A program made the position numbers and the translations under genes. A stretch of DNA of 64,000 nucleotides from Ilyobacter polytropus DSM 2926 (GTDB taxonomy: Bacteria; Fusobacteriota; Fusobacteriia; Fusobacteriales; Fusobacteriaceae), in NCBI RefSeq assembly GCF_000165505.1, contig NC_014632.1:992001-1056000 (forward strand), in the 5' to 3' direction. The notes beneath the pieces were generated by a model that saw only the letters and a list, made by a program, of their open reading frames with translations, made no database searches and was not told the origin of the DNA. Shown here piece after piece: positions 2,403 through 22,986 of the stretch (position 1 is its first letter; each line of letters opens with the position of its first letter).

Positions 2403-2412
2403 AGGTAAATTC

Positions 2413-4556: not shown

Positions 4557-4585
4557 GGAAAGTCACATCAGAAAAAAGAATAGAT

Positions 4586-4626
4586 ATATAAGTATAGAGG
4601 TCTTAAACAGACCTCTATACTTATAT
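4586..4626. terminator. bidirectional terminator, original tldD terminator
   Basis: An 18-bp perfect stem (4586-4603 with 4609-4626) has a 5-base loop. It lies between the methyltransferase and the chromosomal remnant of the tldD 3' end, so it would have terminated both genes before the island entered. Confidence 0.8.
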
Positions 4627-4678
4627 ACTTGAAAAAGGGTATAATCTAGTTTTTCTTAATCATATTAATTACTTTCTC

Positions 4679-4691
4679 CCACCGACTGTAA
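4679..4691. other. left attachment site (attL core) of the island
   Basis: The 13 bases CCACCGACTGTAA recur at 21350-21362 inside the end of tldD. On the minus strand the flanking DNA 4731-4673 reads as a second tldD C-terminus: DRQPAIRIKEITVGG, then RK and a stop at about 4670. Left of the core is the original chromosomal tldD tail and terminator. Right of the core is element DNA ending at the recombinase stop 48 bases away. The two repeats are 16,671 bp apart. Confidence 0.75.
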
Positions 4692-4738
4692 TTTCTTTAA
4701 TTCTAATAGCAGGTTGTCTATCACTATAGTTTTAGAAC

Positions 4739-6075
4739 TTATACTTTAAAAAAAATTTGAATATCACTATCATTATCTAGATATACAATCTTATTTATGA
4801 ATAGCTTTAGAATTGTATTTTGCTCCTTTATATCCAGTTCTTCAAACTTTGAAACCTTGTCTATAAGTTTCTTAAAATTTTCTTTTATGGGTGATGAGCT
4901 ATCAAGATCTTCATTTGTAATATTCTGAATAGACCTCTCTATATCTTGAAGATTCTTTGTATATTTTTCTCTGCTTATAGTTCCATCTAAATATATCTCA
5001 GTAAGCCTACCCTTTCTTTCTTGAAGAGTTTTCAATTTATATTTATATTCACTCCTATTTTTAGTAGAACTTTTTAAGAAATCAAGGTTTCTAACATAAT
5101 TTTTAAACTCTTTGAGAACTAAAGCATCTATCTTCTTCTTATTTACTCCCTTGCTACATTTATGACAAATATAATACTCATTATTGTAGTTATTCTTTTT
5201 ATAATAAGCACCTCCACAAGAATTATGCTTTACTATACCTGTAAGGAGATATTTAGTTCTTCTTATCTTACGTCTTTGGTCTATACCTCTTTCGTGGATT
5301 ATAGACTGAACTAAATTAAATAGATCTTCAGAAACTATTGGATCATGCTTTCCTTCAAAAACTTCACCATCAGTTTTCTTTATTCTTTTTCCAGCTCTAT
5401 TAGTCCCTTCAAATCCAAACTTAATTTTACCTGTATAGGTTATATTTGAAAGGAGTACCCTCATATTATTATAGTGAGTTCCATGTTCTTTAGCCAGCTT
5501 CCTTATACTTTCTCCCTTTGCTACCCTCTCATAATAACTCCTAAGCATAGGAGCATCTTTACTTGGATAGAGGATCTTACTTCTCTTATCATATCCAAAG
5601 GGAGGAGCACCATGAAGATGATAGCCTTCTGAAGCATAATGCCTCATTCTGTTTTTAACTCTTTTAGAGATCATATTACTTTCATTTTCAGCAAGAGACC
5701 CTATAATTCCAATCATCATCCTAGAGGTTGGGTTATTCCCATTAAGAAAATCTTCAGTCATAGATTCAAACTCAATATTATTATAATCTAATTTATGAAT
5801 TAACTGATGTAGATCTTTTTGATTTCTTGCTAATCTTGATAATTCATAGAAAACAAGAACATCAAAGGAATTATTTTCTATCTCCTCTATCACTTTCTTG
5901 AAACCACTTCTTTTCTTTATATCCTTTCCTGATGCTGTATCCTTTTTTATATCATATAGGTAGTGTAACCTTTTTTCTGGATATATTCCCTAGCCTGTGA
6001 TTCTTGCTTAGCTAGGGAGTCTTTATCTTCTTGCATCTGATCACTTACTCTCAGATAAACTATTGCTTTTTTCAT
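4739..6075 (-). pseudogene. large serine recombinase (integrase), frameshifted
   Basis: The ATG at 6075 follows AAGGTGG and opens with the resolvase N-terminus AIVYLRVSDQ, including the catalytic serine. This frame stops after 42 codons at 5949-5947. The other frame continues from about 5980 with DTASGKDIKKRSGF, then the SRLARN active-site segment, the recombinase domain, a zinc-ribbon domain (HNSCGGAYY, then ICHKC) and a C-terminal coiled coil. This is the normal order for a site-specific serine integrase of about 430 residues. The break lies around the GGTTACACTACC stretch (5957-5968). The gene adjoins attL, as expected for the element's own integrase. It may be dead or a sequencing error may be present. 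Confidence 0.8.
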
Positions 6076-6163
6076 TTAATTCCACCTTTTCATAGTATTT
6101 TAAAATTTGTAATGCATTTTTTCTACTAGATTCAGTGGTAGGTTTTATAATAATTACTTTCAT
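6041..6163 (-). CDS. small ORF overlapping the recombinase start, 40 aa
   Basis: The ATG at 6163 is preceded by AGAGGATG. The 40-residue frame starts MKVIIIKPTTESSRKN and ends inside the recombinase start region, overlapping it by 35 bases. The overlap suggests translational coupling to the integrase. The protein is not recognised. Confidence 0.45.
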   Translation of the reverse strand: MKVIIIKPTTESSRKNALQILKYYEKVELNEKSNSLSESK

Positions 6164-6489
6164 TTTATCACATCCTCTTAAATTTTAACAAAACCTAATT
6201 TTTCATATTTATTTTTTTAAGATTAAAGTTTATGATATAATGATGGTGAATAATCCACAATTCTTCTTTGGTCGGTAGCAATTGAGGTTTTGTTCTTTTA
6301 AATAAAGACAGTTTTCTTTAGTTATTAAGTTTTTAATTAAGGAGACTGTCTTTTGTTTTGTAAATTTTCCTTTAATCATTACTTTCTCCTATTCTACTAA
6401 AATCTAACTTTACATCTTCCTATGTACTATGGCTATTTTATTTTTTAATTTTAATAAGTAGGCTATATTTATCAATGTTTTTATTGAAA
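6164..6489. other. gene-free stretch inside the island
   Basis: This AT-rich stretch upstream of the recombinase contains one inverted repeat (AAAGACAGT at 6304-6312 with ACTGTCTTT at 6345-6353) that may be an operator, a transcript structure or a secondary end. No gene is visible. Confidence 0.4.
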
Positions 6490-7149
6490 TTAAACACCAT
6501 TAATTATTCTTAGAAAACCATACAAAACAATCCTGTTTTTAGGTTTTTTTAAAGCTTCTTTTTTTATTTGTTTTTTGAAATCATCAATCCTTTTAAAGTT
6601 GTTTATATACTTTGTATTATCTCTTTCTTCCAGCTCTAAAAGATATTTTTTAGCTTTTAAATATGTTTTTTCAGCTGTCTGAGAGTTTGAATAAGAATTT
6701 TTTATAGCTTCTCTCAATAGAGAATAATCATAAATAATATCTTTATTAGCTTCAATAAAAGTATTTAGTCTAAATGAGTCTCCTTTTTCCTTTCTCCACT
6801 TATTCAATTGGTTACTAAGTGTTAATATACTTTTTTGCTTTGCTTTATTTATATTATTAAATATAATATGGTCAAGGTACTTAAAGGATCTGAATTTCAC
6901 TTCTTTTAACATATTTTCTTTAAAGTTTTTTCTATTTTTTCTTAACCTAATTGATACCTCTACCCTTGTTCTTTCTTTTAAATCACCAAAGTCTTCTAGA
7001 ACTTTTTTTAGTTTACCTGAATTTTTCATTTTAAGTGCCTGATCATAGATTGTAACCTTTCCTTTTGAATTAGGATTAGTAATATAAAAAGACTCACTTT
7101 TAAGTAACTCACCATTGGTGTTATGATGGTTTAGTAGACAGTTTAGCAC
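6490..7149 (-). pseudogene. C-terminal part of a replication-protein-like gene, cut by IS3
   Basis: A 219-codon frame whose first codons lie in the insertion sequence end (7124-7149); genuine gene sequence runs from 7123 down. It includes KVTIYDQALKMKNSGKLKK and RTRVEVSIRLRKNRK, a layout reminiscent of gene II/X-type phage or plasmid replication initiators (YDK-like motif, then a basic strand). Together with the fragment at 8384-8774 it would make a protein of roughly 340 residues. The family assignment is an inference from pattern and could be wrong. Confidence 0.5.
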
Positions 7150-7191
7150 TCAAAAATATATAATAAAAAATAAACATATTTAGGAGTGGCT

Positions 7192-7485
7192 ATGATGGAA
7201 GAAAAAAGAAGATATGCAAGATTTTCAGAGGAGAAACAGAAGCAAATCGCTGAGCTTTCTTTCCTTAAAATAAAAACAAAGGTAGAGCTATCAAATGAAT
7301 ACGGTATTACCACTAATACTGTTGCTGCCTGGGAAAAGAAATACTTTGGAGGTCCTAAGAAGGACATGGAGTTAAGCGCTCAAGACAAAGAAATTATCAG
7401 GTTGAAAAATCTACTTAAGGAAAAAGAAGAGGATATAGAGATCTTAAAAAAGGCTACAGCCATATTCTCAAGGAAAAAAAGATAA
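7192..7485 (+). CDS. IS3-family transposase OrfA
   Basis: A DNA-binding HTH protein of about 97 residues. The start ATG at 7192 (or 7195) follows AGGAG. It shows an N-terminal helix-turn-helix (KTKVELSNEYGITTNTVAAWEKKY) and a C-terminal leucine-zipper-like helix (LKNLLKEKEEDIEILKKA), as in other IS3 OrfA proteins. Near the end, the seven-A run 7474-7480 (A AAA AAG context) is the slippery site for the -1 shift into OrfB. Confidence 0.85.
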   Translation: MMEEKRRYARFSEEKQKQIAELSFLKIKTKVELSNEYGITTNTVAAWEKKYFGGPKKDMELSAQDKEIIRLKNLLKEKEEDIEILKKATAIFSRKKR

Positions 7486-8369
7486 CTAAGAGGGAACTCT
7501 TTATCTTCGTTGAAATACACAGAAATGTTCATTCTATATCTCAGATATGTAGAGCCCTAGAAGTCTCTCGAAGTGGTTTTAATAAGTTTCAGAATAACAA
7601 AACTACTGAGAGAAAGAAAAAGGATCAAGGGATTCTAGATAGTATTCTAGAGGTCAGAAAGAACAGACATAAGAGGAGCTATGGAGCCCCTAGACTAAAG
7701 GTTGAGCTCAAAGATGAATATGGCATAATAACAAGCGAAAGACGAATAAATAGAATAATGAAAGAAAATGATATATCAGTTAATTCTACCAAGAAGTTTA
7801 AAACAGGAAATGAAAAGAGTAAAAGAGAAAATATCACAGGAAATATTGTAAAAAGAAAATTCAAAGTAGGTAGAAAAAATGAGGTCTGGGTTACAGATAT
7901 CACATATATTTGGACAAGCGAAGGTTGGCTATATTTAAGCACAATTATGGATCTTTTTTCTAGAAGGATTATCGCCTACGATATAGGTAAGCGCATGACT
8001 AGTGAGTTAGTAATAGATACTTTAACAAGGTCATTTTTACTGGAGGAACCAGAGGAAGAACTGATAATTCATAGTGATCAAGGATCGCAATATTCGAGTA
8101 GGGAGTACTCTAACCTTGTAAAGAAGCTAGGATTAATCCAATCTATGAGTAGACGTGGGAACTGTTATGATAATGCAGTAATAGAATCCTTTCATGCTTC
8201 TTTGAAGAAAGAGATGATTTATGTAGAAGGTTTAGTAACTAAAAGGTATATGAAGGCAATGGTATTTGATTACATAGAATTTTATAATAAAGAGAGGAGA
8301 CACAGTTTCTTAGGAAATGTCTCCCCTGTTGAGTTTGAAAAAATACAGAAAAAATTGGTGTTAGGTTGA
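7479..8369 (+). CDS. IS3-family transposase OrfB (DDE integrase), made by -1 frameshift
   Basis: The -1 frame is open from the A7 slippery run through to 8369, giving about 296 residues. It contains an HTH_21-like region (SISQICRALEVSRSGF, then KRSYGAPRL) and the rve integrase core. The catalytic triad is visible: D in WVTDITYIW, D in IIHSDQGSQYSS, and E in NAVIESFHASLKKEM. Both parts look intact, so the element may be active. Confidence 0.85.
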   Translation, partial: KITKRELFIFVEIHRNVHSISQICRALEVSRSGFNKFQNNKTTERKKKDQGILDSILEVRKNRHKRSYGAPRLKVELKDEYGIITSERRINRIMKENDISVNSTKKFKTGNEKSKRENITGNIVKRKFKVGRKNEVWVTDITYIWTSEGWLYLSTIMDLFSRRIIAYDIGKRMTSELVIDTLTRSFLLEEPEEELIIHSDQGSQYSSREYSNLVKKLGLIQSMSRRGNCYDNAVIESFHASLKKEMIYVEGLVTKRYMKAMVFDYIEFYNKERRHSFLGNVSPVEFEKIQKKLVLG

Positions 8370-8372
8370 CTA

Positions 8373-8774
8373 CTATATTGACAGAAGACCACCATAGCCT
8401 TTATATTGCCATCCTCCTAATTCTGAACAAAGCTTTATAAAAGCCCAAATTTGTTTCCAACTATTAAAAGACTCTGTGGCAGGTCGGTAATGAGTAAAGG
8501 GGTAATCAATCTTTAAAAACAAAACACTTTCGATATTATATCCTAAACGTGTAATTGTATTTTCTAAATTTTCTAAAACTTCATTAACTTCTTTTTCCTT
8601 TGTTATTAAAAAAGCATTAGCTAGTGTATAAAAATATCTAGGAAAGCTTAAAACAATAACTCTATTATTTGCCTTTAATCTAATAGCGTTAATGTTTTTA
8701 ATTTTTCTTAGCTCTTCCCAATCGCAGTCGCTAATTTTTTTATTTGTTGTAATTGTTAAATCAATTGTATCCAT
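8373..8774 (-). pseudogene. N-terminal part of the replication-protein-like gene
   Basis: The start ATG at 8774 follows GAGGAGTT. About 130 native residues (MDTIDLTITTNKK to GGWQYKGYGG) run up to the IS boundary at 8384; the last few codons come from the IS. It matches up with the C-terminal fragment at 6490-7123 on the same strand. The conserved-looking segment FPRYFYTLANAF and the later DYPFTHYRPA are not diagnostic for me. I infer a replication or mobilisation role only from the C-terminal part and the context. Confidence 0.5.
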
Positions 8775-8821
8775 TTCCAACTCCTCATAAAATTAATTTT
8801 TAGGTTATAAATTTAAAGTTG

Positions 8822-8851
8822 TTATAAATATCGAATTAAATGACTCTTCAT
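8822..8851 (-). CDS. possible 9-aa leader peptide
   Basis: AAGGAGGTC is followed by an ATG at 8851 and the short frame MKSHLIRYL, stopping at 8824-8822, about 50 bases before the replication-like gene. The strong ribosome site suggests it could be translated. Purpose is unknown. Confidence 0.3.
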   Translation of the reverse strand: MKSHLIRYL

Positions 8852-9169
8852 ATTAGACCTCCTTGAAATTCTTAATAACTATTGAGGAAAAAATTAGCCT
8901 TATTCCTTAATAATTACTCGTAAGCATTATTGCTTATTATAATAAAAAATTCAAACACTAATTTTAGTGGAAATAACTATTTTTTAAAAAAATTTAAAAA
9001 AATTTAAAAAAACACAACTAGAGATACTAGAAGCTTTAAAAAACCATAAAATTAAACATTTTTAAGGGATTAAAAAAAATTGAAAGTATTTTTTTATTAC
9101 TTTTATTCTAAAAATAAAATCTATATTTTTTATGAGAATTTTTTAACAATATTCAGATAAAAAAAAACC
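8852..9169. other. AT-rich gene-free stretch
   Basis: The stretch consists of long A/T runs with repeated AAATTTAAAAAAA units around 8985-9015. No gene or clear structure is seen beyond the leader peptide's ribosome site and the terminator at the right edge. An origin for the element would fit here, but nothing shows it. Confidence 0.3.
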
Positions 9170-9185
9170 TTAAACTAAAGGCTTT
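9154..9185 (-). terminator. weak terminator
   Basis: On the minus strand AAGCCTT pairs with AAGGTTT (one G-U) around a 6-base loop and is followed by a long T-run. It overlaps the end of the 75-residue gene. Confidence 0.5.
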
Positions 9186-9397
9186 CTTTTTTCTAATTCT
9201 TCTTCAATTTTTCTAATAGCTTCTTTAGAAGCTTCATAGCTAGTTTTAGCTCTCTTGTAATAGTTCATCATGTGATTGTCTTCCATATCTTTAAAAGTTT
9301 TAGGATAAACGCTATTAATTATAATAAAGTTAGTAGAACTTTCACTATCTTTATTAGGTTCTTTTTTTATTTTCTTGATTTTTTCTGATATATCCAT
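9170..9397 (-). CDS. hypothetical protein, 75 aa
   Basis: The protein is not recognised. It is hydrophilic and helical, with KIKKIKKEPNKDS at the start and a charged C-terminal helix (SYEASKEAIRKIEEELEKR). Its ATG overlaps the stop of the preceding gene as TAATG, after CAGGAGGG, so the two are translated together. Confidence 0.55.
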   Translation of the reverse strand: MDISEKIKKIKKEPNKDSESSTNFIIINSVYPKTFKDMEDNHMMNYYKRAKTSYEASKEAIRKIEEELEKRKPLV

Positions 9398-9882
9398 TAA
9401 ACCCTCCTGTTAGCTCCTAATTCTAGCTTTTTAATCATTATTTCAAAGCTTGCTAAGTCTTTATAGGTTAAAATATCATGAGCTACATAATCAATTTGAC
9501 GAGTTTCTTTCAATATTTTAACAAGTTTTTCTAAAAGTTGAACTTGATAAAATGAATCTTCATTATTAAGTCCTGATTTAATAATCTCTGATATCTTATC
9601 TCTTATAGCTCTTAGGGTAGATTTATAAAACTCCTTTACTTCGATTACCTCCTTAGATGTAGAAGCACTATTAAGAGGGGTATTTTCTGTTTTTCCTTCC
9701 ACAACTTCTGCCACAACTTCACCAGCCATTTTATCTGAAAACTTTTTATCAGCTGGCACCCACTTTTCTTTATTGTTATATAGAGTCCCAGGAGCTATCT
9801 CCAATTCATTGCTTATCTCCTTAACTGAGAAGCCTTTACTAGCTAAGATTGTCACCTTATTCCAATCTATAATTTTAGGCAT
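9397..9882 (-). CDS. HTH DNA-binding protein, 161 aa
   Basis: The N-terminal 40 residues form a helix-turn-helix (DWNKVTILASKGFSVKEISNELEIAPGTLYNNKEKW) of the kind found in transposase-like and terminase-small-subunit-like proteins. The rest is helical and charged, including VKEFYKSTLRAIRDKISEIIKS and a conserved-looking end. The start follows AAAGAGGTG. It forms a two-gene operon with the 75-residue gene. Likely a regulator or partition/packaging accessory of the element; function is not established. Confidence 0.55.
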   Translation of the reverse strand: MPKIIDWNKVTILASKGFSVKEISNELEIAPGTLYNNKEKWVPADKKFSDKMAGEVVAEVVEGKTENTPLNSASTSKEVIEVKEFYKSTLRAIRDKISEIIKSGLNNEDSFYQVQLLEKLVKILKETRQIDYVAHDILTYKDLASFEIMIKKLELGANRRV

Positions 9883-10068
9883 ATTATCACCTCTTTAAAT
9901 TTAGTTTCATTAATAAAAAATCAAGTTAAAACCATTAATTTTATTGACTTTCCTTAATATAAGTTTACCTTAAAAATCAACTATAATGAACTTTTAATTA
10001 AATAAATTTAGCCCAAATGAATATGTGTGGTAAATATAAGATTATAAAGGTAGATAGGAGTAATATTT

Positions 10069-10140
10069 ATGAAACCAGATCTTAAAGATACTGACTTATT
10101 AACTCATTATTTTAAGGGGGAAGAATATGATTATAAGTAA
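10069..10140 (+). CDS. short upstream ORF overlapping the DUF2779 gene, 23 aa
   Basis: GATAGGAGT precedes the ATG at 10069. The 23-codon frame MKPDLKDTDLLTHYFKG continues across the start codon of the DUF2779 gene at 10127 and stops at 10138-10140. This arrangement suggests translational coupling or control. Confidence 0.35.
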   Translation: MKPDLKDTDLLTHYFKGEEYDYK

Positions 10141-11890
10141 GACTAAATTTATGAATTTTATGAAATGTGATAAATACTTTGAATATTTTAGAGCTGAAGA
10201 AGCCTCAAACCCATATAAGGAAGATAAAAATGAAAAATTTAAGGAGATATTATATAAGTTAGGAGAATCAGTCGATGAAGAAAATGGACTAAATGAGTTG
10301 GAAGCTATGATGCCTTATTATAATCAGGTAGAATCTGTAGCATCTGAGATCACAAAAAAGTACTTACCTGGAGAAGTACATGATAGAAGGAATCCCTATG
10401 GACAACGACTATTTGAAAAAGAATACGGAGAGAATAAGTATTTTTGCTATACAGATATTGTTGCTGAAACTGAAAATGATCTGAATATTCTAGAAGTTAA
10501 AGCCACCTCAAGTAGAAAATTTATGGACATGAAGTATAATAAGATTCCTATTTTTGAAAAAGGTGATGATAATGTAATAAGATTAAGAGAGACATCAAAT
10601 CCAGACTTATTACAGGATAAAAAATACATGAAACAAAGAGAAAAATTATTGGATTCAGGTGACAAAGTTGGTAAGTACTTTTACGACCTTGCATATCAGT
10701 ATTTTATTATTAACGGAACACCTGACAAAAGGACGAATTACTATCTCGCTGTGTTGAACCATGAATATGTTTTTGACGGTGAGTATAGTGATGATAGAAA
10801 TCCTATATATTCCCAAAATGAAGATGGGAATGAATTAATTACTTTTATAGATATATCTCCACTATTGAATGATTATGAAAAAAAGATAGAAGAAGACATA
10901 GAGTATTTAGAAGGCTTAATGGAAACAGAGGAGTTTGATAAACCTTATCTAGATGGAAGGTGTAGTGGCTGTGATTATGAAAGTCATTGCTGGAAGGATA
11001 TTCCAGAGAAGAATTCTATTCTGTCATATATAGGAAGCCATTATGGATTTGAAGATGATAGTGGAACTAAGAGACAACAATATGACCTATTGAATGAAGG
11101 GTATATTAACCTTTTGGATATTCCAGATTCTTGGTTAAAAAGAGAAAATAATATAATTCAGAGGAATGTTGTTGAAACAGGTGAAGCTTATACTAACAGA
11201 GAAAAAATAAAGGATGCTTTAGAAACCCTTAAATATCCACTTTATCACTTAGATTTTGAAACATTCCCTTGTCCTTTACCCAGGTTTAGAGGAGAGAAGC
11301 CATATAGTCAATCGGTATTTCAGTTTTCATTACATATAGAGAAAGAACCAGGGGTTTGTCATAAGGAAAAGGACCACTATGAGTTTTTAGCTGATTCTCA
11401 TAGTGATATAAGAGAGAATTTTATAAAAACTATGCTAGAGCATATTGACTTAGAAGCAGGTGGTAATGTTATCGTTTATAATCAATCCTTTGAAAAAACA
11501 AGGGTGAAGGAACTTGCTGAGATTTTTCCTAAGTACAAAGTGGATCTAGAGAAACTAAATGAAAAGATATTCGATCTGCTGTATATAGTGAAGACTAACA
11601 GTAACTTTTATAAGGGTTTAGGTTATAGTGATCCTGAAGCAAAGCTGTTTAATTATTATCATGAGGATTTAGATAGTTCCTTCTCTATAAAGAAGGTGTT
11701 GCCAGTGTTTAGTCCATTAAGCTATGAAGGGCTAGCTGTATATGACGGTGTACAAGCTATGCTGACCTATGCTGATGAAAACCTGTTAAAAGCAAAGCAA
11801 AAGGAATTAAAGGAGTATTGCAAGCAGGATACCTGGGCTATGGTTGAGATTTTAGAAGAGTTAAGGAAATTAGCAGATCAAAACCTTTAA
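10127..11890 (+). CDS. DUF2779 protein: Cas4-like nuclease fused to DEDD exonuclease
   Basis: A 587-residue protein with two visible parts. Residues 1-290 look like a PD-(D/E)XK nuclease of Cas4/RecB type: IISKTKFMNFMKC at the start, the ILEVKATSS strand near 125, and a cysteine cluster CSGCDYESHC at about 279-288 that could hold an Fe-S cluster with an N-terminal Cys. Residues 370-580 carry RNase H-like DEDD motifs: HLDFETF near 375, VYNQSFEKTRV near 450, and YCKQDTWAMVEIL near 563. This is the DUF2779 arrangement, often found near restriction or defence genes. The start follows AAGGGGGA. It is alone between two terminators, upstream of the R-M operon. A DNA-processing or defence role is inferred. 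Confidence 0.75.
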   Translation: MIISKTKFMNFMKCDKYFEYFRAEEASNPYKEDKNEKFKEILYKLGESVDEENGLNELEAMMPYYNQVESVASEITKKYLPGEVHDRRNPYGQRLFEKEYGENKYFCYTDIVAETENDLNILEVKATSSRKFMDMKYNKIPIFEKGDDNVIRLRETSNPDLLQDKKYMKQREKLLDSGDKVGKYFYDLAYQYFIINGTPDKRTNYYLAVLNHEYVFDGEYSDDRNPIYSQNEDGNELITFIDISPLLNDYEKKIEEDIEYLEGLMETEEFDKPYLDGRCSGCDYESHCWKDIPEKNSILSYIGSHYGFEDDSGTKRQQYDLLNEGYINLLDIPDSWLKRENNIIQRNVVETGEAYTNREKIKDALETLKYPLYHLDFETFPCPLPRFRGEKPYSQSVFQFSLHIEKEPGVCHKEKDHYEFLADSHSDIRENFIKTMLEHIDLEAGGNVIVYNQSFEKTRVKELAEIFPKYKVDLEKLNEKIFDLLYIVKTNSNFYKGLGYSDPEAKLFNYYHEDLDSSFSIKKVLPVFSPLSYEGLAVYDGVQAMLTYADENLLKAKQKELKEYCKQDTWAMVEILEELRKLADQNL

Positions 11891-11944
11891 AATCTTTATA
11901 GTATTAAATTTATCTGTAATTTATTTGAATTTTATAGTGAGAAT

Positions 11945-11973
11945 GGGAGCTTATAAAAAAGCTCCTTTTTTAG
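11945..11973 (+). terminator. intrinsic terminator
   Basis: GGGAGCTT pairs with AAGCTCC across a short A/T loop, followed by TTTTTT, 55 bases after the DUF2779 stop. Confidence 0.75.
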
Positions 11974-12046
11974 TCTTTCTGAATAAATAAATTAAATAAT
12001 ATTATAATACTTTTTTTTAAATCTTCAGAAAAAGATAAAAAATAAG

Positions 12047-12178
12047 AAGACATTCTTAAGAAAAAAAGACATTTATAAGCATAATATAATTTAGAAAATA
12101 TAAAATATTATTATGTTCATTTGAAATAATTTGTTAAAAATGTCTTTACTATAAGTGTAATGTCTTTCTAATTGTCTT
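12047..12178. promoter_or_regulatory. repeated AAGACATT sites upstream of the HTH gene
   Basis: AAGACATT occurs at 12047-12054 and 12066-12073. Its inverse AATGTCTT occurs at 12139-12146 and 12159-12166, and a variant ATTGTCTT at 12171-12178. Spacings of 19-20 bases put the pairs on one helix face, and the two pairs face each other across 65 A/T-rich bases. This looks like operator or iteron-type sites. The rest of the gap 11891-12273 holds only the terminator. Confidence 0.45.
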
Positions 12179-12273
12179 GTTTTTGTGTCTAAGTAAGGTT
12201 AATATATGAATATAAGAAATTTAAACGTGATATCAAAAGTCATAAATCAATTTACTAGATGTGGAGGTATATA

Positions 12274-13263: not shown

Positions 13264-13339
13264 CAAATATTTATTAAAAGGGTTTTAAATAATAATAAAT
13301 TTAATGTAGAATGATATTAGAACAGATAGGAGGTATGAA

Positions 13340-16108
13340 ATGATTAATCAGAAACCTGAAGATCAAGCTAGGGATAATATAGATTTAATACTCAGAAGGT
13401 CAGGATGGGCTGTACAGGATAAAAAAAGTATAGACTTTAGTGCTGCCCAAGGAGTAGCCATAGCAGAATATCAAACAAGTACCGGACCAGCTGATTATGT
13501 TCTTTTTGTTGATGGTGATCCAGTAGGAGTTGTGGAAGCCAAGAGAGAAGAGGAAGCCCATAGATTAACTGAACATGAGGACCAGACTAAACGTTATATC
13601 AACAGTAAGCTCAAGTATATAAATAACGACACGCCATTGATTTTTGGGTATGAAAGCACTGGTGTAATAACACACTTTACTGACTATAGAGATCCGCTTC
13701 CAAGAGCCAGGGAGGTCTTTACTTTTCACAGGCCAGAAACAATGGCCAGATGGTTCAAGGAGGGAGAAAGTTTAAGAAAAAGTATCTTAAAGATGCCAGA
13801 GCTTAATGAAACTGGACTGAGAGATTGTCAGATTAATGCTATTGGAAATTTAGAAAGATCATTTAAAGACAATAAGCCAAAGGCCCTGGTTCAGATGGCA
13901 ACTGGAAGTGGAAAGACCTTTACTGCGGTAACTTCTATCTGGAGGCTGTTAGAGTCTACCAAGGCGAAGAGAGTATTATTTTTAGTAGATACCAAGAACT
14001 TAGGGGAGCAGGCTGAGTCTGAATTTATAACTTATTCTCCAGTTAATGAGAACAGGAAGTTCAGTGAGATATATGGAGTAAAAAGACTGAACTCTCCTCA
14101 TATCCCAAATGATAATCACGTATATATAAGTACTATCCAGAGGATGTACTCTATACTATCAAATAAGGAATTGGATGAAAGCGAGGAAGAGATCAATCCA
14201 AATGAGTGTGGCGAGGATTACAATAAAAAGGAACCTAAGGAAGTAGTTTATAATGAAAAACTTCCTGTGGAATATTTTGATTTTATAATTATAGATGAAT
14301 GCCATAGATCTATCTATAATGTCTGGAAGCAGGTTTTAGATTATTTCGATGCTTTTTTTGTGGGACTGACTGCTACACCGGATAATAGGACATATGCTTT
14401 TTTTAATGAAAATGTAGTAAGTGAGTATGACCATGAGGATGCAATCGCTGATGGAGTTAATGTAGGGTATGACACTTATTTAATAGATACAAAGGTATCA
14501 TTAGCAGGTGGAAAGTTAAAAGCTGAAGAAAATGTAGAAAAGAGAGAAAAGTTATCCAGAAAAAAAAGATGGACGCAGCTGGATGAAGATTTTGAGTATG
14601 ACAGAGCAAAACTTGATAAAGAAGTTGTCAATAAAAGTCAGATAAGAAATATTATTAAAGAGTTTAAAAGATCAATAGAAAAATAGATATTTCCGAAGAG
14701 AGAGGAGATTCCCAAAACACTTATATTTGCCAGAACAGACAGCCATGCTGAGGATATAATTGAGGTTGTAAGGGAGGAGTTTAATAAAGGGAATGAGTTT
14801 TGTAAGAAGATCACCCATAAGGCAAAGGAAGATGCTAAATCACTGCTGAGTTCCTTTAGAAATGATTATAATCCGAGAATAGCAGTAACTGTAGATATGA
14901 TTGCAACGGGAACAGATGTAAAGCCTCTGGAATGCCTTCTTTTTATGAGGGACGTAAGGTCTCGTAACTACTTTGAGCAGATGATAGGAAGAGGAACAAG
15001 GGTAATAGAACACGAGGCTCTTAGGAAGGTAACACCTTCAGCTGTGAGTAAAAATCACTTTATTATAGTGGATGCTGTGGGAGTTACAAAGTCTACTAAG
15101 ACAGATTCCAGACCTCTAGAAAGAAAGAGAGGGGTATCACTGAAGGAGCTGCTAAACGGGGTTCTTATGGGAGATACCAGCGAAGATACTTATCTGTCCC
15201 TTGCCAGCAGGCTATCAAGACTGGAGCAGGACATGACAGATAAGGAGAAGAAGGAATTTTGTAAGCATAGTAAGGATAAGCCTATAAATATAACTATACA
15301 TGATCTGCTGGATACTCACAATCCAGATAAGATTGAAGAGGAAGCTAGAAGGATCTTTGATACTGATATTAGTCAGGTGCCAGATGAAGATCAACTAAAG
15401 GAAGGAAAGAAGAGTCTAGGAAAGAAAGCCAGGATGAACTTCAATGGAAACCTTATTGAATACCTTGTGGGCTTGAAGAAGTCCAAGGAACAGATCATAG
15501 ATGAGAAAAATCTGGATGAGGTAATCTATTCAGGATGGGATAAGAATAGAAAAGATATCAGTAAAGAGGTTGTAGAGGAGTTTAAAGGATTCATAGAGGA
15601 AAACAGAGATGAGATTGCTGCACTGAGATTATATTATGATACTCCCTACAGAAGAAGAGAAGTAACCTTTGATATGATTAAGGAGCTTATGGAGATACTA
15701 AAGAAGGCAAAACCAAGGTTAGCCCCGCTAAATGTATGGAGGGCATATGAAGAGATAGAGGGAGCAGCAGGTAAATCTCCAAAGGATGAGTTAGTGGCCC
15801 TTGTATCCTTAGTAAGAAGGGTGTGTGGTATAGATGAGATACTCACACCATATGATAGCGTGGTAAATAGAAACTTTAAAAACTGGATATTTGATAAGCA
15901 CTCTGGAGCTAAGAGTAAGTTTACAGAAAAGCAGATGGAGTGGCTGAGGATGCTAAAGGATCATATAGCTACTTCATTCCATGTGGAGGTTGATGATCTG
16001 GAATATACACCGTTTATATCTCAAGGGGGGATAGGGGGGATGTATAATCTCTTTGGTGAAAATATGAATGATATAATAGATGAGTTAAATGAGGTGCTGG
16101 CTGCATAG
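13340..16108 (+). pseudogene. hsdR: type I restriction endonuclease subunit R, amber-interrupted
   Basis: The frame from 13340 (after AGGAGGTATGAA) to 16108 is open except for one in-frame TAG at 14684-14686. Part one (448 residues) has the nuclease PD..ExK motif (PADYVLFVDGDPVGVVEAK), Walker A (MATGSGKTF), IIDECHRS and GLTATP. Part two resumes in frame with IFPKREEIPKTLIFA and carries the helicase C motifs (MIATGTDVKPLECLLFMRD, then QMIGRGTR). The stop falls at a position normally occupied by an acidic residue before IFP, so one base change explains it. The product as it stands lacks helicase domain 2 and should not translocate or cut. Confidence 0.85.
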
Positions 16109-16172
16109 CCAGCCCTTTATTTTTAGGTTTAAATATGCGATAATGAATAATCAAATTAAGAAAGGTAAAAGC

Positions 16173-17675
16173 ATGAATGACAATAAACCAATAGAGTGGA
16201 TAAAAGTTCCTTTAATTGAATGTGTGGGTATATATGATAGATATAGAAAGCCAATTAGCAAAATAGAAAGAGATAAAAGAGTCAGTGGAAAAAATTGTAA
16301 TGATCTATTCAAATATTATGGTGCGACAGGTCTAGCAGGATATATAGATGATTATTTATTGGAAGGAGAATATGTTATTTTAGGAGAAGATGGTGCTCCA
16401 TTTTTAGATTCTCTTAAAAGTAAATCTTATCTTGTTAGCGGAAAATTTTGGGTAAATAATCATGCTCATATTCTTAAATCTTATTTTAATAATAAGTTTT
16501 TATTGCACTATCTAAATCAATTTAATTATAAAAATTATGTTTCGGGTACGACTAGACTTAAACTAAACCAAACTTCGATGAAAAAAATTCCAATAATTGT
16601 TCCTCCATTAGCTGAACAAGAGGAGGTAGTTTCAAGAATTGAATCTTTATTTTCTGAGCTAGACAATGGTATAGAAAACCTTAAGAGGGCTCAGAAGCAG
16701 CTGAAGCTATACAGACAGTCCATATTAAGGGATGCCTTTGAAGGTAAGCTTACAGAGGAGTGGAGAAGGAGTAATCCAGATAAGGTTGAGGATCCTGAAG
16801 TTCTTGTGGAGAAGATAAAAGAAGCAAGAGTGGAGTATTATGAGAATCAGCTGGAGGAGTGGAAGGAAAGAGTAGAGGAGTGGAAGAGTAGAGGAGAAGT
16901 TGGAAAAAAGCCAAGTAGGCCTAGTAAATTAAAAGAATTTACTTTATCAACTAATAAAATGAAAAATATTCAAGGGTGGACTTGGATGGCCTTTGGGAAT
17001 ACTTTTACAGAATCTCCACAAAATGGAATTTATAAACCTGCTAACTTATATGGAGAAGGAACAAAAATAATTAGGATTGATAATTTTTATGATGGTGTGA
17101 TTAATAGTAAAAAAACATTTAAAAGTTTAAAATTAACAGAAGAAGAGGTAGAGAAATATAAATTGACAAATAACAACATATTAATTAATAGAGTCAATAG
17201 TATTGATTACCTAGGAAAATGTGGATTGTGTCAAAATATAGACGAATCCACAGTTTTTGAAAGTAATATCATGAAAATTACAGTTGATAATAAGAATATT
17301 GTATCTAAATTTATTACATTGTATTTAACTAGTAGAATAGGAATAAGTGAGCTAAGAAAAAATGCTAAGCATGCAGTTAACCAGGCAAGTATCAATCAGA
17401 CAGATGTGTCAAATGTTCTTGCACCTATATGCTCTTTAGATGAGCAGAATGAAGTTATTAAGATTGTTGAAGAAAAGCTTTCTATTTGTGAAAATCTTGA
17501 GAGAACTCTTAGGAGTAGTCTGAAGCGATCTGAATTATTAAGGCAAAGTATCCTTAATAAAGCATTTAGTGGGAAACTAACTAAAGAGTGGAGAAAAGAA
17601 AACCAAGGATTAATAACAGGAGAAAATTCTGCAGAAAACCTATTGAAAAAAACCAAAGAAGAAAAAGAGGGATAA
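16173..17675 (+). CDS. hsdS: type I restriction specificity subunit S
   Basis: A 500-residue protein with two target recognition domains, each followed by a conserved helical spacer. The first spacer is SRIESLFSELDNGIENL, then RQSILRDAFEGKLTEEWR near residues 155-200. The second is VEEKLSICENLERTL, then RQSILNKAFSGKLTKEWR near the end. The start at 16173 follows AAGAAAGGT; longer in-frame starts exist but would overlap hsdR. The frame is intact, unlike its R and M partners. The TRDs would recognise the two halves of a split DNA target; the target cannot be read from sequence. Confidence 0.85.
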   Translation: MNDNKPIEWIKVPLIECVGIYDRYRKPISKIERDKRVSGKNCNDLFKYYGATGLAGYIDDYLLEGEYVILGEDGAPFLDSLKSKSYLVSGKFWVNNHAHILKSYFNNKFLLHYLNQFNYKNYVSGTTRLKLNQTSMKKIPIIVPPLAEQEEVVSRIESLFSELDNGIENLKRAQKQLKLYRQSILRDAFEGKLTEEWRRSNPDKVEDPEVLVEKIKEARVEYYENQLEEWKERVEEWKSRGEVGKKPSRPSKLKEFTLSTNKMKNIQGWTWMAFGNTFTESPQNGIYKPANLYGEGTKIIRIDNFYDGVINSKKTFKSLKLTEEEVEKYKLTNNNILINRVNSIDYLGKCGLCQNIDESTVFESNIMKITVDNKNIVSKFITLYLTSRIGISELRKNAKHAVNQASINQTDVSNVLAPICSLDEQNEVIKIVEEKLSICENLERTLRSSLKRSELLRQSILNKAFSGKLTKEWRKENQGLITGENSAENLLKKTKEEKEG

Positions 17676-17676
17676 T

Positions 17677-19145
17677 ATGACGGAAACTAATGCACTACTT
17701 ACCAAGGTTGATAATTTTTGTAATACACTAAGGGACGATGGAATAGGATATGGAGACTACCTGGAATAGCTTACCTATCTGATATTCCTAAAGATGGCTG
17801 ATGAGTATTCCAAACCACCATATAGAAAGGAATCTGGAATTCCTAATGAGTATAACTGGGAATCACTGAAAGATAAAAGCGGTATAAAATTAGAATCACA
17901 CTATATGACTGTCCTTAGAGAGTTAGGGAATAAGCCAGGTATGCTTGGACAGATCTTTACAAAGTCTCAAAATAGGATTCAGGATCCAGCAAAGTTATAT
18001 AAACTAGTTAAGATGATAGATGATGAAAGCTGGGTTATTATGGGGGCAGATGTAAAGGGGAATATCTATGAGGGACTTCTACAAAAATTTGCTGATGACA
18101 CAAAGAGTGGAGCGGGACAATACTAGCAGTAATTAAAGCTATGGTAGAATGTATGAAGTTGGAACCTAAAAAAACAATCTGTGATCCAGCATGTGGAACA
18201 GGAGGATTTTTCCTAGCTGCTTATGACTATTTATCGGATAACTACAGAATGAACAGAGAAGAGAAGGAGTTTCTAAAAAAGGAGACCTTTTTTGGAAATG
18301 AGATTGTTGCAAGTACAAGAAGGCTTGCGCTTATGAATCTATTCCTACATGGTATAGGTGAGATCACAGGGGAATCAGTGATATCTCCTAATGACTCACT
18401 TGTTTCAAGTCCTTCTAAAACTGTTGACTATGTGCTCGCTAATCCTCCGTTTGGGACAAAGAGCAGTATGACATTTACAAATGATGATAATAAAAAAGTT
18501 AAGGATGACCTTACTTACAACAGACAGGATTTCTGGGTAACTACGTCTAATAAGCAGCTAAACTTTATGCAACATATACATTCACTATTAAATAGCACAG
18601 GTAAAGCTGCAGTAGTAGTACCTGACAATGTGTTATTTGAAGGTGGAGCTGGTGAAACAATCAGAAAGAAGCTCCTCATGAATACAGAACTCCATACAAT
18701 ATTAAGGCTTCCTACAGGAATTTTCTATAAACAAGGGGTAAAGGCAAATGTACTTTTCTTTGATAATAAGCCTGCTGGAGAAGATGTAAAGACCAAGGAG
18801 ATATGGTATTATGACCTTAGAACTAATAAGCACTTTACTTTAAAGAAGAGTCCATTAAGCTTTAAAGATCTGGAGGATTTTATAAAGTGTTATAACCCTG
18901 AAAACAGGTTTGATAGAAAGGAAACCTGGTCTGAAGAAAACCCAGAGGGAAGATTCAAAAAGTTTTCCTATGAAGAGATTGCTGAGAAGGATAAGACCAG
19001 TCTGGATATCTTCTGGATTAAGGATAAGAGTTTGACAGACCTTGATAACCTTCCTGCTCCTGAGGTGCTAGCTGGAGATATTATAGAGAACATAGAGGCT
19101 GCCCTAGAGAGTTTTAAGGAGATCAATGATTTTTTAGAGGATTAA
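17677..19145 (+). pseudogene. hsdM: type I DNA methyltransferase subunit M, amber codon plus small deletion
   Basis: The ATG at 17677 is 2 bases after the hsdS stop. The frame reads GIGYGDYLE, then TAG at 17767-17769 where the family has Gln (CAG), then LTYLIFLKMADEY. A second break occurs at 18121-18126: after SGAGQY the family continues FTPR, but here about 10 bases are missing and the frame shifts, resuming as VIKAMVECMKLEPKKTICDPACGTGGFF (residues listed here in two pieces: VIKAMVECM and CDPACGTGGFF). NPPF is present in VLANPPFGTKS. The family is N6-adenine methyltransferase. With two lesions, the loss looks real rather than a single sequencing slip. Confidence 0.85.
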
Positions 19146-19229
19146 AATAATATGATGTTAGAGGCTCTGAAATGGGCCTCTACTTAGTTTTTGCAATGAA
19201 TTTTAGAATGATATAGAGGGGGGAAGTAT

Positions 19230-19919
19230 ATGAGCAATACAGAGAAGTTTGAGGATGGAGCAGAGCGTGCAGGAAAATATTTAGCAACAGCAACTACATT
19301 TGTAAATCCTGTTGCAGGGATGTTGTTATACGGAGGAGTTGAGTTAGCCTCATATTTAAATAAGTTTGCCCAAGATAGAGTAAATGGAAGAAATGAAAAG
19401 ATGCTTAAATTTTTAGAAGAACTTAATAGTTTCATTGGAAAAGAAATTAAAGATATAGATGATCCATTTTTAGAGGGAGAGTATTTCAATGATGTTCTAG
19501 AGAAAGTGTTAGTAAAAGCTAGTAGTTGTAAAACTCAATATAAAAAAGATGTGTTTAAGAAGATAATAAAGGATGAGATTACTGCGAAAACTGAGATAGA
19601 CTTTTCTTCATCATACCTAAATATAATCAGTGAACTTCATGGAGAAGAGATTGAGATATTAAAATATATAAGACAAAATCAAACTCCAATAAATACTAAT
19701 AGTATGGAGGACTGGGTAGAAAAGGAAAAACTTAGAGATTATTTAGATGGAATTAAAGGCTTAAACCAAGCTTATAGTAAAGAGAACTTTGAAGTCTATT
19801 TATATAATCTAATCTATAAGGGATTATTGGTCAGTGCTTCAATGAATGGAAACGATCCTTTGAGGACAACCATTTTAGGAGAGAGATTGATGGAGTATAT
19901 AGAGGGGGAAAGGATCTAA
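19230..19919 (+). CDS. unknown protein of the R-M locus, 229 aa
   Basis: The protein is not recognised with certainty. A GAGGGGGGAAG ribosome site sets the start. Residues 20-45 form a hydrophobic helical stretch (FVNPVAGMLLYGGVELASYL) that could insert in or associate with membrane. The middle is helical and charged, and the last 90 residues (YLYNLIYKGLLVSASM, then TTILGERLMEYIEG) look like a winged-helix end as seen in DUF4393/Abi-alpha-like proteins, which is a guess. It lies 84 bases after hsdM and 40 bases before the zinc-ribbon/HEPN gene, and both frames are clean while hsdR and hsdM are broken. Confidence 0.55.
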   Translation: MSNTEKFEDGAERAGKYLATATTFVNPVAGMLLYGGVELASYLNKFAQDRVNGRNEKMLKFLEELNSFIGKEIKDIDDPFLEGEYFNDVLEKVLVKASSCKTQYKKDVFKKIIKDEITAKTEIDFSSSYLNIISELHGEEIEILKYIRQNQTPINTNSMEDWVEKEKLRDYLDGIKGLNQAYSKENFEVYLYNLIYKGLLVSASMNGNDPLRTTILGERLMEYIEGERI

Positions 19920-19959
19920 GAATCACAGAAAGAAAATTTTGGTATAGGGGGAACTAATT

Positions 19960-21288
19960 ATGACTGTTAGACAAATTATAGAATGTAATTATTGTGGGAC
20001 TAAAACCTTGACTAGAACTATAATGGGTTTTATTGAAAACGTTCCTTTGAGAGTTCCATGCTGTGGATGTGGCGTAGTTTTAAGAGGAACTCTAACCATG
20101 ATTCCAGAAGATGTTGATTATAGAATAAAGTTTAGTAACGCAAAATTAGTTGGAAGTAGTGAGGGAGAGCCAGAATATACTATTGAACTCTCAGGAGAGC
20201 TAATGACTAAAAAGGTAGAGAAATATGAATTTGCTACTTCTCTTATTTCACCTGTTATTAAAAATCTGATGTTTCACGGAGCTTTAACTAAGGGGAAAAA
20301 TAATATTGAAGATTTCAAGTTTAAATTTAAATCATTAATTGGTGATAGGTCTAAGGAATGGCAAACTTTAAAAGATGTCGAAGATCTATGGAATAATAGG
20401 AATTATAAAATCATTAAGAAAGTTATCAGTTCGTTTCCCGAATTTGAATACCTTAAGGAAATCTCTGATGATTATAAAAACATAGAGTTAGAAGCATTTA
20501 ATTTAAAAAATATTTCCTTTTCAACTATTATTACCCAAATTACTCCTAATGATTTCGCTGAAAAAAGAAATAATTTAGAAGATCAAATAAGCCTCTCTTT
20601 AAATAACCCGAATAAACTTTATTCTTTAATTATTGAGAATAAAGAGAGCTGCGAAGAACTCCAAAAAAAACTTTTTAGTCAAATAGGGAAAATTGTAGAA
20701 CGTTTTGAGAATTTAATTCCAATCTTTGGGTTAAAGTATCTTGGAGATATGGAGGATAATTTTTTTGACAATAAAGGAATTACTACAGTTACTTTTGAAG
20801 AGATAAAAGATATTTATATAGATAATTACGAAGTGATACTATCTTGTAGTGATATAGTAATAGCTATAGATAATTTAATAATAAATAATGATTTTAATAA
20901 TATGCAAGTAACTGGAGCCTCAAAAACGAAAACTTTATCAAAATATAGAAAACTATCCAACGGACATAAACTTAACTTCATAAATGAGAATGAAAGCTAT
21001 TTTAATAAACTTCTTGAAAGCGATCTTGACAAAGAAATAAGGAATTCAATAGGCCATAATTCTTATTCATTTGATAGTGTTAGCCAAAATATAACTTTCA
21101 AAAAAAATAATGGTTCAAGTAAAAAAATGTCTTTAGTACTTTTTTTAATGAAGTTATGGGACAGCTTCATAACATGTTATAATCTTTGGTACTTTTATAA
21201 AGAACTCAATAAACTACGTATAATACTCTCTCTGCCATTAAGTACAAAAGAACTAAATAGGTTTATAAGAGATTATTCAATAAGATAA
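19960..21288 (+). CDS. zinc-ribbon protein with C-terminal HEPN-like R-x4-H motif, 442 aa
   Basis: The start follows TAGGGGGAAC. Residues 9-37 form a four-cysteine zinc ribbon (C9-x2-C12, C34-x2-C37). The middle 250 residues are mostly helical and not recognised. Near the C-terminus DKEIRNSIGHNSYSFD has Arg361, Asn362 and His366, the R-x4-H (R-N-x3-H) motif of HEPN RNases, followed by a helix with aromatic residues. HEPN proteins are common RNA-cleaving effectors in abortive infection and toxin-antitoxin systems. The position at the end of a restriction island, after a possible membrane partner, fits a defence role. Both fold and function need testing; the motif alone is short. Confidence 0.55.
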   Translation: MTVRQIIECNYCGTKTLTRTIMGFIENVPLRVPCCGCGVVLRGTLTMIPEDVDYRIKFSNAKLVGSSEGEPEYTIELSGELMTKKVEKYEFATSLISPVIKNLMFHGALTKGKNNIEDFKFKFKSLIGDRSKEWQTLKDVEDLWNNRNYKIIKKVISSFPEFEYLKEISDDYKNIELEAFNLKNISFSTIITQITPNDFAEKRNNLEDQISLSLNNPNKLYSLIIENKESCEELQKKLFSQIGKIVERFENLIPIFGLKYLGDMEDNFFDNKGITTVTFEEIKDIYIDNYEVILSCSDIVIAIDNLIINNDFNNMQVTGASKTKTLSKYRKLSNGHKLNFINENESYFNKLLESDLDKEIRNSIGHNSYSFDSVSQNITFKKNNGSSKKMSLVLFLMKLWDSFITCYNLWYFYKELNKLRIILSLPLSTKELNRFIRDYSIR

Positions 21289-21302
21289 ATTATGTTAATG
21301 TT

Positions 21303-21332
21303 AAAAAGACACCCAAATATAGGGTGTCTTTT
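21303..21332. terminator. terminator at the right end of the island
   Basis: AAAAGACACCC pairs with GGGTGTCTTTT around a short A/T loop, and works on either strand. It lies between the zinc-ribbon/HEPN gene and the tldD stop and belongs to the element. Confidence 0.8.
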
Positions 21333-21342
21333 AACATTATTA

Positions 21343-22722
21343 TTACCTACCACCGACTGTAAGTTCCAAAACTTTGATAGCTGGTTGTCCTACATTAGCA
21401 GGGATGCTACCTGAAACAGATCCGCACATTCCTTGACCGTGAGCCAAGTTGTCTCCTATCATATCAATCTTGTTTAGAACTTCAGGCCCGTTTCCTATAA
21501 GGGTAGCTCCCCTTACAGGCTCAGTTATTTTACCGTTCTCGATCAGGTATCCTTCCATCACAGAAAAATTGAAATCACCTGTTGCAGGGTTTACAGAACC
21601 TCCTCCCATTCTCTTTGCATAGATACCGTTTTCTGTATTTGAAATCATTTCATTCAACTTTGATTTTCCTGCCAAAATAAAAGTATTGGTCATTCTTGAT
21701 GTAGGAGCAAATTTATAAGATTCTCTTCTTGCACTTCCAGTACTTTCCATGTTCATTCTTCTTCCGTTTAATTTATCAATCATGTATCCTTTTAAAATTC
21801 CATTTTCTATAAGAAGATTTCTTTTTGTAGGAGTTCCTTCATCATCTATATTCGACGAACCCCATTCATTTTCTAAAGTCCCGTCATCAACTGCACTCAC
21901 CAGATCAGAGGCAACTTTTTGCCCTAGTTTACCTGCAAATACAGAGTTTCCCTTTGCCACACTAGTGGCTTCAAGACCGTGTCCACAGGCTTCATGAAAA
22001 ATGACACCTCCAAATTCATTGTCGATTATTACCGGGAATTTTCCACTGGGACAGTATTTGGCATTTAGCATCGTCTTTGCTATTCTAGAAGCCTCTATAC
22101 CGCACTCTTCTACATTTATGTCCTCAAAAAATTCAAATCCCTTTAGAGCTCCCGGTCTGTATGAACCAGTTTGCATATCATTATCTTTTGAAGCGACACT
22201 TTCTATACCTATCCTAGAACGTGTCCTAGTGTCTTCAGTCCACAAGCCTTCTGAATTGGCGATCATAACATTCTGTACAGAGTCGGAGTAGCTTATCCTC
22301 ACCTGAGATATAGAATCATCATATGAAGATGCAGCTCTATGAGCTCTTTTCATAATCTCTACTTTTCTGTCTTTCCCCACTTTATCAGGAGGCAGAAGTA
22401 TTTTGTGCCTGTTTTCTATATCCTGTTTAATTAGATTGATGGTTATGTCACTGTTAGTACCTTTTATAGCTTCTGCGGCTCTTTTAGAGGTTTCCATAAG
22501 TGACCCTCTCGTAACTTCATTTGTATAGGCATATACAGAAAAAAGTCCCTTGAATATCCTTATACCTACTCCAAAATCTTTACCTGAAAGAGATTTTTCT
22601 ATACTGCCGTCAATCATAAATAATCCTGTATTAAATTTTTCTTCTATAAATACCTCGGCAAAGTCACCACCAGTGGATAAAGCCTGTATCAGAATATCTT
22701 CTATCAATATTTTATCTAACAT
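21343..22722 (-). CDS. tldD: TldD metalloprotease
   Basis: TldD forms with TldE (PmbA) a zinc protease that degrades or processes unfolded and modified peptides; the partner gene is not in this window. The ATG at 22722 follows GGAGGTTTATT; the longer in-frame start is unlikely. Of 459 residues, the metal site is in GGVIFHEACGHGLEATS near residue 250 (H-E-x3-H). The C-terminal segments GNGPEVLNKIDMIGDN, then NVGQPAIKVLELTVGGR, are typical. The last codons lie in the island attachment repeat; the element supplies the final codon and stop. Before integration the C-terminus would have been TVGGRK. Confidence 0.92.
   Translation of the reverse strand: MLDKILIEDILIQALSTGGDFAEVFIEEKFNTGLFMIDGSIEKSLSGKDFGVGIRIFKGLFSVYAYTNEVTRGSLMETSKRAAEAIKGTNSDITINLIKQDIENRHKILLPPDKVGKDRKVEIMKRAHRAASSYDDSISQVRISYSDSVQNVMIANSEGLWTEDTRTRSRIGIESVASKDNDMQTGSYRPGALKGFEFFEDINVEECGIEASRIAKTMLNAKYCPSGKFPVIIDNEFGGVIFHEACGHGLEATSVAKGNSVFAGKLGQKVASDLVSAVDDGTLENEWGSSNIDDEGTPTKRNLLIENGILKGYMIDKLNGRRMNMESTGSARRESYKFAPTSRMTNTFILAGKSKLNEMISNTENGIYAKRMGGGSVNPATGDFNFSVMEGYLIENGKITEPVRGATLIGNGPEVLNKIDMIGDNLAHGQGMCGSVSGSIPANVGQPAIKVLELTVGGR
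21350..21362. other. right attachment site (attR core)
   Basis: This is a second copy of CCACCGACTGTAA, in the last tldD codons. About 33 bases to its right match the recombinase-side flank of attL at roughly two thirds of positions, so the element's own arm mimics tldD coding sequence. Confidence 0.75.
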
Positions 22723-22926
22723 AATAAACCTCCATTTCAAAAATTTCATTTATTAAGAAAATACTATCAAAATTAACTTGAAAATACCATTATAAAAATT
22801 ATTAATAAAAAATAAAATTTAAAATAACAGTAGTCACAATTACAAAGATATCTTCTAGATCCCATTATAAATAGGTTTTTCTATATAAAACTTTAATTTT
22901 TGTTCTTTATAAAATAAAAAAAAATG

Positions 22927-22955
22927 TTGACAAATGCCCGTAAACAAGATATATT
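22927..22955 (+). promoter_or_regulatory. consensus sigma70 promoter of the ammonium operon
   Basis: TTGACA at 22927-22932 and TATATT at 22950-22955 are exactly 17 bases apart, so transcription should start near 22962. This leaves a leader of about 220 bases before the first P-II gene. No sigma54 (GG-N10-GC) element is visible. Confidence 0.75.
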
Positions 22956-22986
22956 ATATCAATAGAGAATAACAAAAGAATACATC

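Follow-up and report, generated by a model that had tools for sequence, protein, structure and literature searches.

What lies between the tldD gene of Ilyobacter polytropus DSM 2926 and the end that this gene seems once to have had, and how could TldD stay complete with that DNA in place? We analysed a window, i.e. the whole stretch of 64,000 nucleotides at positions 992,001 to 1,056,000 of contig NC_014632.1 (forward strand; positions are those of the window unless stated otherwise). A preliminary description had proposed that an integrative element of 16.7 kb, carrying a large serine recombinase, sits in the 3' end of tldD. This proposal is borne out by two TldD tails, a clade of related integrases and relatives inserted at the same site. 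Very probably, the serine integrase of an integrative element of about 16.7 kb recombined attP with attB in the tldD 3' end, at the central CA of GGACAACC.

Two TldD C-termini in one window

The tldD gene (21343-22749, minus strand) belongs to the TldD family according to both Pfam and NCBIfam. A six-frame search for TldD-type C-termini gave two hits in the window, namely the tail that tldD has at present (QPAIKVLELTVGGR plus stop, ending KVLELTVGGR) and a second one at 4669-4716, adjoining the integrase (QPAIRIKEITVGGRK plus stop, ending RIKEITVGGRK). A terminator-like site (4628-4584) lies 3' of this second, displaced tail. The 13-bp repeat CCACCGACTGTAA reported earlier is indeed present at 4679-4691 and 21350-21362, with no further copy on either strand of the window, and the recombinase frame does stop 48 bases beyond the left copy, at 4739. 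This copy belongs to the second tail, and both copies fall in conserved TVGG codons. Since 1-10000 and 15000-30000 have 24 direct repeats of this length or longer in common, a 13-bp repeat is unremarkable by itself; its position is what counts. The guanine plus cytosine content of the element (31.4%) is similar to that of its flanks (30.7 and 31.8%), so that composition marks no boundary. The features of the insertion are the following, all on the minus strand.

21343..22749: tldD, target gene; last 15 codons including stop (21343-21387, QPAIKVLELTVGGR plus stop) apparently element-supplied
21386..21387: predicted attR crossover, central CA of GGACAACC, codon Q; based on repeats in four other insertions and the attP symmetry centre
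4715..4716: predicted attL crossover, central CA of AGACAACC; based on shared repeats and attP symmetry
4669..4716: displaced, apparently native tldD tail (QPAIRIKEITVGGRK plus stop), host side of attL
4728..4740: attP inverted repeat, left arm (in tldD sense, AAGTTCTAAAACT)
21361..21373: attP inverted repeat, right arm (AGTTTTGGAACTT), doubling as coding sequence for part of the supplied TldD tail
4679..4691: left 13-bp repeat, TVGG codons of the displaced tail; probably not core
21350..21362: right 13-bp repeat, TVGG codons of the supplied tail; probably not core
4584..4628: terminator-like site after the displaced tail
21300..21335: inverted repeat with T-run after the supplied stop; by-eye candidate terminator from the element

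Which of the two tails belongs to the host? Five tldD insertions were compared: that of the window and those of G001 and G002 (two other genomes of the genus), G023 (Cetobacterium) and G020 (a Fusobacteriaceae metagenome-assembled genome, with the two insertion ends on different contigs). In each of the other four too, tldD ends in one tail and another lies displaced. In 5/5 pairs, similarity to 15 other family tails was greater for the displaced tail than for its counterpart on tldD (scores of 14.4 against 8.1 in the window, 8.5 against -6.9 in G001, 10.5 against -6.9 in G002, 10.3 against 6.9 in G023 and 8.1 against 3.4 in G020). The 15 comparison tails, which include that of G006, omit that of G037 (motif misfit) and were not individually screened for insertions, themselves score 4.6 to 14.5. 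Moreover, G001 and G002 have similar flanks behind the displaced tail, and in both the same adh gene follows. On these two grounds, the displaced tail looks to be the native tail of the host, and the tail on tldD to have come with the element. All 5 supplied tails retain a T/I-V/I-G-G-R ending. Read by eye, an inverted repeat with a T-run follows the supplied stop in the window and in G002; no terminator was called at this place by a scan of the window stretch.

Probable position of the crossover

In the other four insertions, the exact shared stretch lies at V-G-Q-P-x-I, where their longest repeat is also found, and not at TVGG. It reads GTAGGACAACCTGCGATACGAA in G002 (22 bp), ACAACCTGCTATTCGAA in G001 (17 bp), GTTGGACAACCGACTAT in G020 (17 bp) and GGACAACCTACGAT in G023 (14 bp). 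Together with the inverted repeat of attP (see below) and the nativeness of the tails, these insertions place the crossover most likely at GGACAACC (codons G-Q-P; 4716 and 21387, minus strand), 25 nt upstream of the 13-bp repeat in tldD sense, and its CA would be the central dinucleotide. The 13-bp repeat, which had been put forward as the att core, is therefore taken as conserved codons beyond the crossover. More generally, an exact repeat at a gene end can be conserved codons instead of an att core, a point to bear in mind for annotation. The core-like sequence RGACAACCWGCTAT has exact matches in the genome at the two att sites only, and is found with one mismatch at four more places. It had also been expected that excision would restore tldD next to its own terminator. 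A displaced, native-looking tail with its terminator is indeed present (4716-4584); with the crossover at GGACAACC, the restored end would be QPAIRIKEITVGGRK plus stop, and not the hybrid KVLELTVGGRK.

The attP sites of serine integrases are described as partly symmetric about the central dinucleotide, with important outer flank positions (PMC3642061, PMC3783163). When the two ends of the window element are joined, the result is AAGTTCTAAAACT-N25-AGTTTTGGAACTT, with the CA of GACAACC in the middle. For each of the five reconstructed attP sites, 28 pairs were scored at 120 centres and compared with 5000 arm shuffles. The best centre falls at the CA, within half a base, in 3/5 cases: the window (17/28 pairs; 2 of 5000 shuffles as good), G002 (17/28; 0 of 5000) and G023 (15/28; 76 of 5000). 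The predicted arms, to which the integrase would bind, are about 13-26 nt from the centre. No symmetry was found in the five predicted attB sites, for which 1164 to 3909 of 5000 shuffles were as good. A shift of the ZD motif between attP and attB, as modelled in PMC3783163, was looked at by eye and forms no part of the present proposal.

Could the 13-bp TVGG repeat be the core after all, 4692-4738 then being element DNA? Its exact identity at both ends speaks for this and weighs against a crossover at GGACAACC, as only 10/120 pairs among 16 other tails are identical over these 13 bp. We nevertheless hold it highly unlikely, because the longest repeat of the four other insertions (14-22 bp) lies at GGACAACC and not at TVGG, because an attP built on the 13-mer pairs at no more than 12/28 positions at centres inside it, its best centre (14/28) lying outside, and because the native-looking displaced tail would become part of the element. 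If the crossover is at GGACAACC, the uncommonness of the TVGG identity suggests that the supplied tail may have descended from a closely related tldD.

An integrase clade at the tldD site

The window integrase, of about 450 aa, is a large serine integrase with PF00239 (partial) and PF07508 domains, and matches the phage integrase family phrog_95. Its N-terminal part is in another frame, the frame change being seen by comparison with the intact gene of L083, part of a 36-kb metagenome record in a viral collection that was found with an integrase-alignment scan of viral contigs. The L083 integrase has both the resolvase and Recombinase domains (444 aa scanned) and is 76% identical to that of the window. 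Intact integrase frames are present in 5 relatives (G002, G006, G020, G023 and L083). Across 96 genomes of the order, scores of 600 bits or more are reached by five integrases, the next one having 396; in a tree of 31, these five group with L083 as a single clade of six (support 99/97). Counted from the first base of the integrase stop codon, a tldD tail starts after 23-29 nt in 5/6 clade members, and no tail occurs within 300 bp of the integrase in any of the 25 outside the clade (0/25; for one of these, downstream sequence covers only 205 bp). Searched alone against genome contigs, the window integrase gave 42 candidate stretches, none confirmed; the scan of genome contigs with the integrase alignment gave 3 loci, all of them the already known G020, G006 and G023.

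The insertions differ in what they carry. In L083, the intact integrase is followed by the displaced tail of the window with one base changed, and L083 shares the terminator and the methyltransferase gene of the window as well. Per 100 bases, its host flank is 98-100% identical to that of the window from 3894 to 4593 and 92% identical from 4594 to 4693, the integrase gene being only 58-88% alike per 100 bases. L083 thus appears to be a second element at the same site in a near-identical host flank. The rest of its record holds phage structural genes (by eye, without family search); a tldD query had no match in the virus records G085 and G086, so the right end of this element is unseen. Phage structural genes recognized by eye extend up to tldD in G002 (about 39.6 kb from integrase to tldD), and are also found in G023 (most of the stretch viewed; about 40.5 kb). 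From these comparisons, a single integrase clade in Fusobacteriaceae, found at the tldD site, seems to be used by phages and islands alike, with cargo that would range from phage genomes to the defence-type island of the window.

The insert of G001 (L032 17610-19130) has 1.45 kb between two tldD tails, with only a pseudouridine-synthase gene; no integrase open reading frame (ORF) is listed there. Its supplied tail (RTWCTVGGR) is nearly the same as in the G002 phage, and a clear DNA match with the G002 prophage ends is seen only at the tldD end and the displaced tail. It is perhaps a collapsed relative of the G002 phage. The sole tldD locus found in viral contigs, L121, was rejected as an insertion, since by eye its genes are ordinary chromosomal ones and a pmbA-like start comes after tldD.

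Observations that weigh against the proposed insertion

Several observations, besides the identity over the TVGG codons, count against a single integration at GGACAACC by an integrase devoted to this site. At V-G-Q-P-x-I, the two ends of the window read GACAACC(T/A)GCTAT and are identical at only 12/13 positions. The CA centre of attP is not significant in G020, where it ranks third (12 pairs; 1557 of 5000 shuffles as good), nor in G001, where it ranks 13th (9 pairs; 2049 of 5000), and attL of the window also pairs at 16/28 positions about the same centre. In the sixth clade member, from Propionigenium maris (G006), integrase and tldD are 1.3 kb apart and oppositely oriented, and tldD looks intact; no second tail was found over 205,000-304,100 of its contig 1, nor a convincing att repeat between the tldD side and the far end. 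Finally, none of the 3 genomes of the genus that were compared has an empty tldD site, all carrying different DNA at the locus, and no circular form of the element was seen.

That all 3 genomes differ at the locus would also suit a history of separate events, in which the displaced tail stems from an older insertion and the insertion sequence and restriction-modification genes were acquired later at a hotspot, the two ends not being those of one integration. The patchwork of cargo with broken genes and the lack of a listed integrase ORF in the G001 insert point the same way. Yet the left and right ends of the window jointly form the best attP symmetry among 120 centres, which is hardly expected of unrelated ends, and we consider such a history quite unlikely. 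The prophage-like region of G006 (L070 10427-11706 and G086) is possibly a secondary site or a rearrangement.

A recombination site that may double as a protein tail

Under the integration proposed here, the large serine integrase would recombine a circular attP with an attB inside the tldD 3' end, the exchange falling at the CA of GGACAACC, which belongs to codon 16 as counted back from the native end, stop included. Of attP, the half left on tldD would carry the right arm of the predicted integrase-binding inverted repeat and would also encode an in-frame substitute C-terminus, here ending TVGGR and stop, followed by the terminator-like repeat. The native tail (RIKEITVGGRK and stop) and its terminator would be displaced by 16.7 kb, to lie beside the integrase. 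As the attP half supplies a substitute C-terminus, TldD would stay complete despite the displacement of its native tail, and the supplied tail presumably keeps it working. Residue C434 of TldD aligns with Cys454 of E. coli TldD, reported as a metal ligand (PMC5810440; the 14-residue offset in the crystal chain is assumed to be a tag), and the crossover Gln comes 13 residues later; loss of the tail would therefore probably harm TldD.

With some reserve, we lean towards a broader reading, in which Fusobacteriaceae harbour an integrase clade devoted to tldD with a dual-coded attP. One half-site for the integrase would also be read as a replacement C-terminal strand after the metal-binding cysteine. 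Divergent DNA, and not a copy of the gene end, would then restore TldD as a protein, and the tail of the host enzyme would be exchanged with every new element. This would be a natural case of keeping a host protein working when an integrase needs the gene end, with recombination site and protein tail in the same bases. It would also add tldD to the landing sites of serine integrases, and the intact enzymes with their predicted att sites (full attP for G002 and G023, one side for L083) are possible integration tools for Fusobacteriota.

Comparison with known systems

Serine recombinases inserting in gene ends are already known, so that by analogy the element would be of a familiar kind. In staphylococcal cassette chromosome (SCC) elements, Ccr large serine recombinases act at the 3' end of rlmH, the C-terminus of this conserved gene is rebuilt by element DNA, and cargo varies. 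The window element resembles SCC in its large serine recombinase, its insertion in the last codons of a gene, the apparently element-rebuilt C-terminus and the varied cargo. It differs in its target (tldD), its integrase of about 450 aa of phrog_95 type rather than Ccr, its crossover 16 codons from the end, and the phage genes accompanying several members of the tldD-site clade. Membership of SCC is ruled out: against NCBIfam, the window integrase has CcrB, CcrA and CcrC as matches two to four, with scores well under the cut-off (90 bits for CcrB, against 900), and the target is TldD.

Phage integrases of the Bxb1 and A118-LI type share the resolvase and Recombinase domains and an attP partly symmetric about its central dinucleotide. 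They have a different attB, and all 376 phage records matching the G002 integrase are below 60% identity (at most 28.1% in the best 20 of the 376). The dusA-associated integrases, as outlined in an abstract (PMC4482086), are likewise one family tied to one conserved housekeeping gene and carried by prophages and islands; they use the 5' end of dusA, as against the 3' end of tldD, and the likeness concerns this description and not the type of recombinase. As the preliminary description had stated, the tldD 3' end is not known to be a commonly listed site for serine integrases, and no paper naming tldD as such a site was found in the searchable literature, outside which fall most subscription journals and all preprints. 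A study of Photorhabdus and Xenorhabdus (PMC3091717) has a table that pairs genes, tldD included, with regions of genomic plasticity, so that plasticity near tldD was tabulated before.

Gene content and state of the element

The island-type gene list given earlier holds, except that the ORF at 6490-7149, called replication-like, has no family match. The content of the element is as follows (HTH, helix-turn-helix).

4739..6075, minus: large serine integrase, frameshifted; frame 4739-5893, ATG at 6075 for the N-terminal part
6490..7149, minus: ORF of 219 aa, no family match
7186..8369, plus: insertion sequence with two ORFs, one with a weak HTH_Tnp_1 match (below cut-off) and one with an rve transposase core; by this layout, presumably IS3-type
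9397..9882, minus: HTH protein, weak HTH_Tnp_1 match, below cut-off
10127..11890, plus: DUF2779 protein with a weak Cas4-like segment
12259..13263, plus: HTH_3 regulator
13340..16108, plus: hsdR, type I restriction subunit, split into 13340-14686 and 14897-16108
16089..17675, plus: hsdS specificity subunit, whole
17794..19145, plus: hsdM methylase, split into 17794-18126 and 18141-19145
19230..19919, plus: candidate defence protein, Abi_alpha-like (just below cut-off) or PDC-S47-like
19960..21288, plus: partner ORF of 442 aa, similar to phrog_13366 of unknown function

Three genes of the element are thus broken (integrase, hsdR and hsdM), and it also contains an insertion sequence. Breaks in all three genes, by a frame change (a usual type of error) in the integrase, might suggest an active element misread through assembly errors. 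This we judge unlikely: compared with G001 and G002, 0/34 neighbouring host genes are split over frames (in-frame stops, of which pmbA has one, being uncounted), so that the breaks look real. With its integrase broken, the element is probably stranded and hardly able to move by itself, although it would have been mobile in the past.

Neighbouring genes

On the left flank of the window (3810-4560), a methyltransferase is found instead of the adh and membrane-protein genes of G001 and G002, so the region behind the displaced tail would itself have been replaced. Elsewhere in the family, 6 genomes have pmbA immediately after tldD on one strand, and other genomes have the two genes divergent. In the three genomes of the genus, they are on the same strand and about 10, 22 and 52 kb apart, and successive insertions in tldD may have split a tldD-pmbA operon. 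In the genome analysed here, pmbA (tldE), the partner of tldD, lies just left of the window (genome positions 990029-991249; L036 12006-13346, minus strand). It is a full-length gene, 88% identical, with one in-frame TAG (alignment residue 92); this partner in TldD/E may be newly broken, or the TAG may be a sequencing error.

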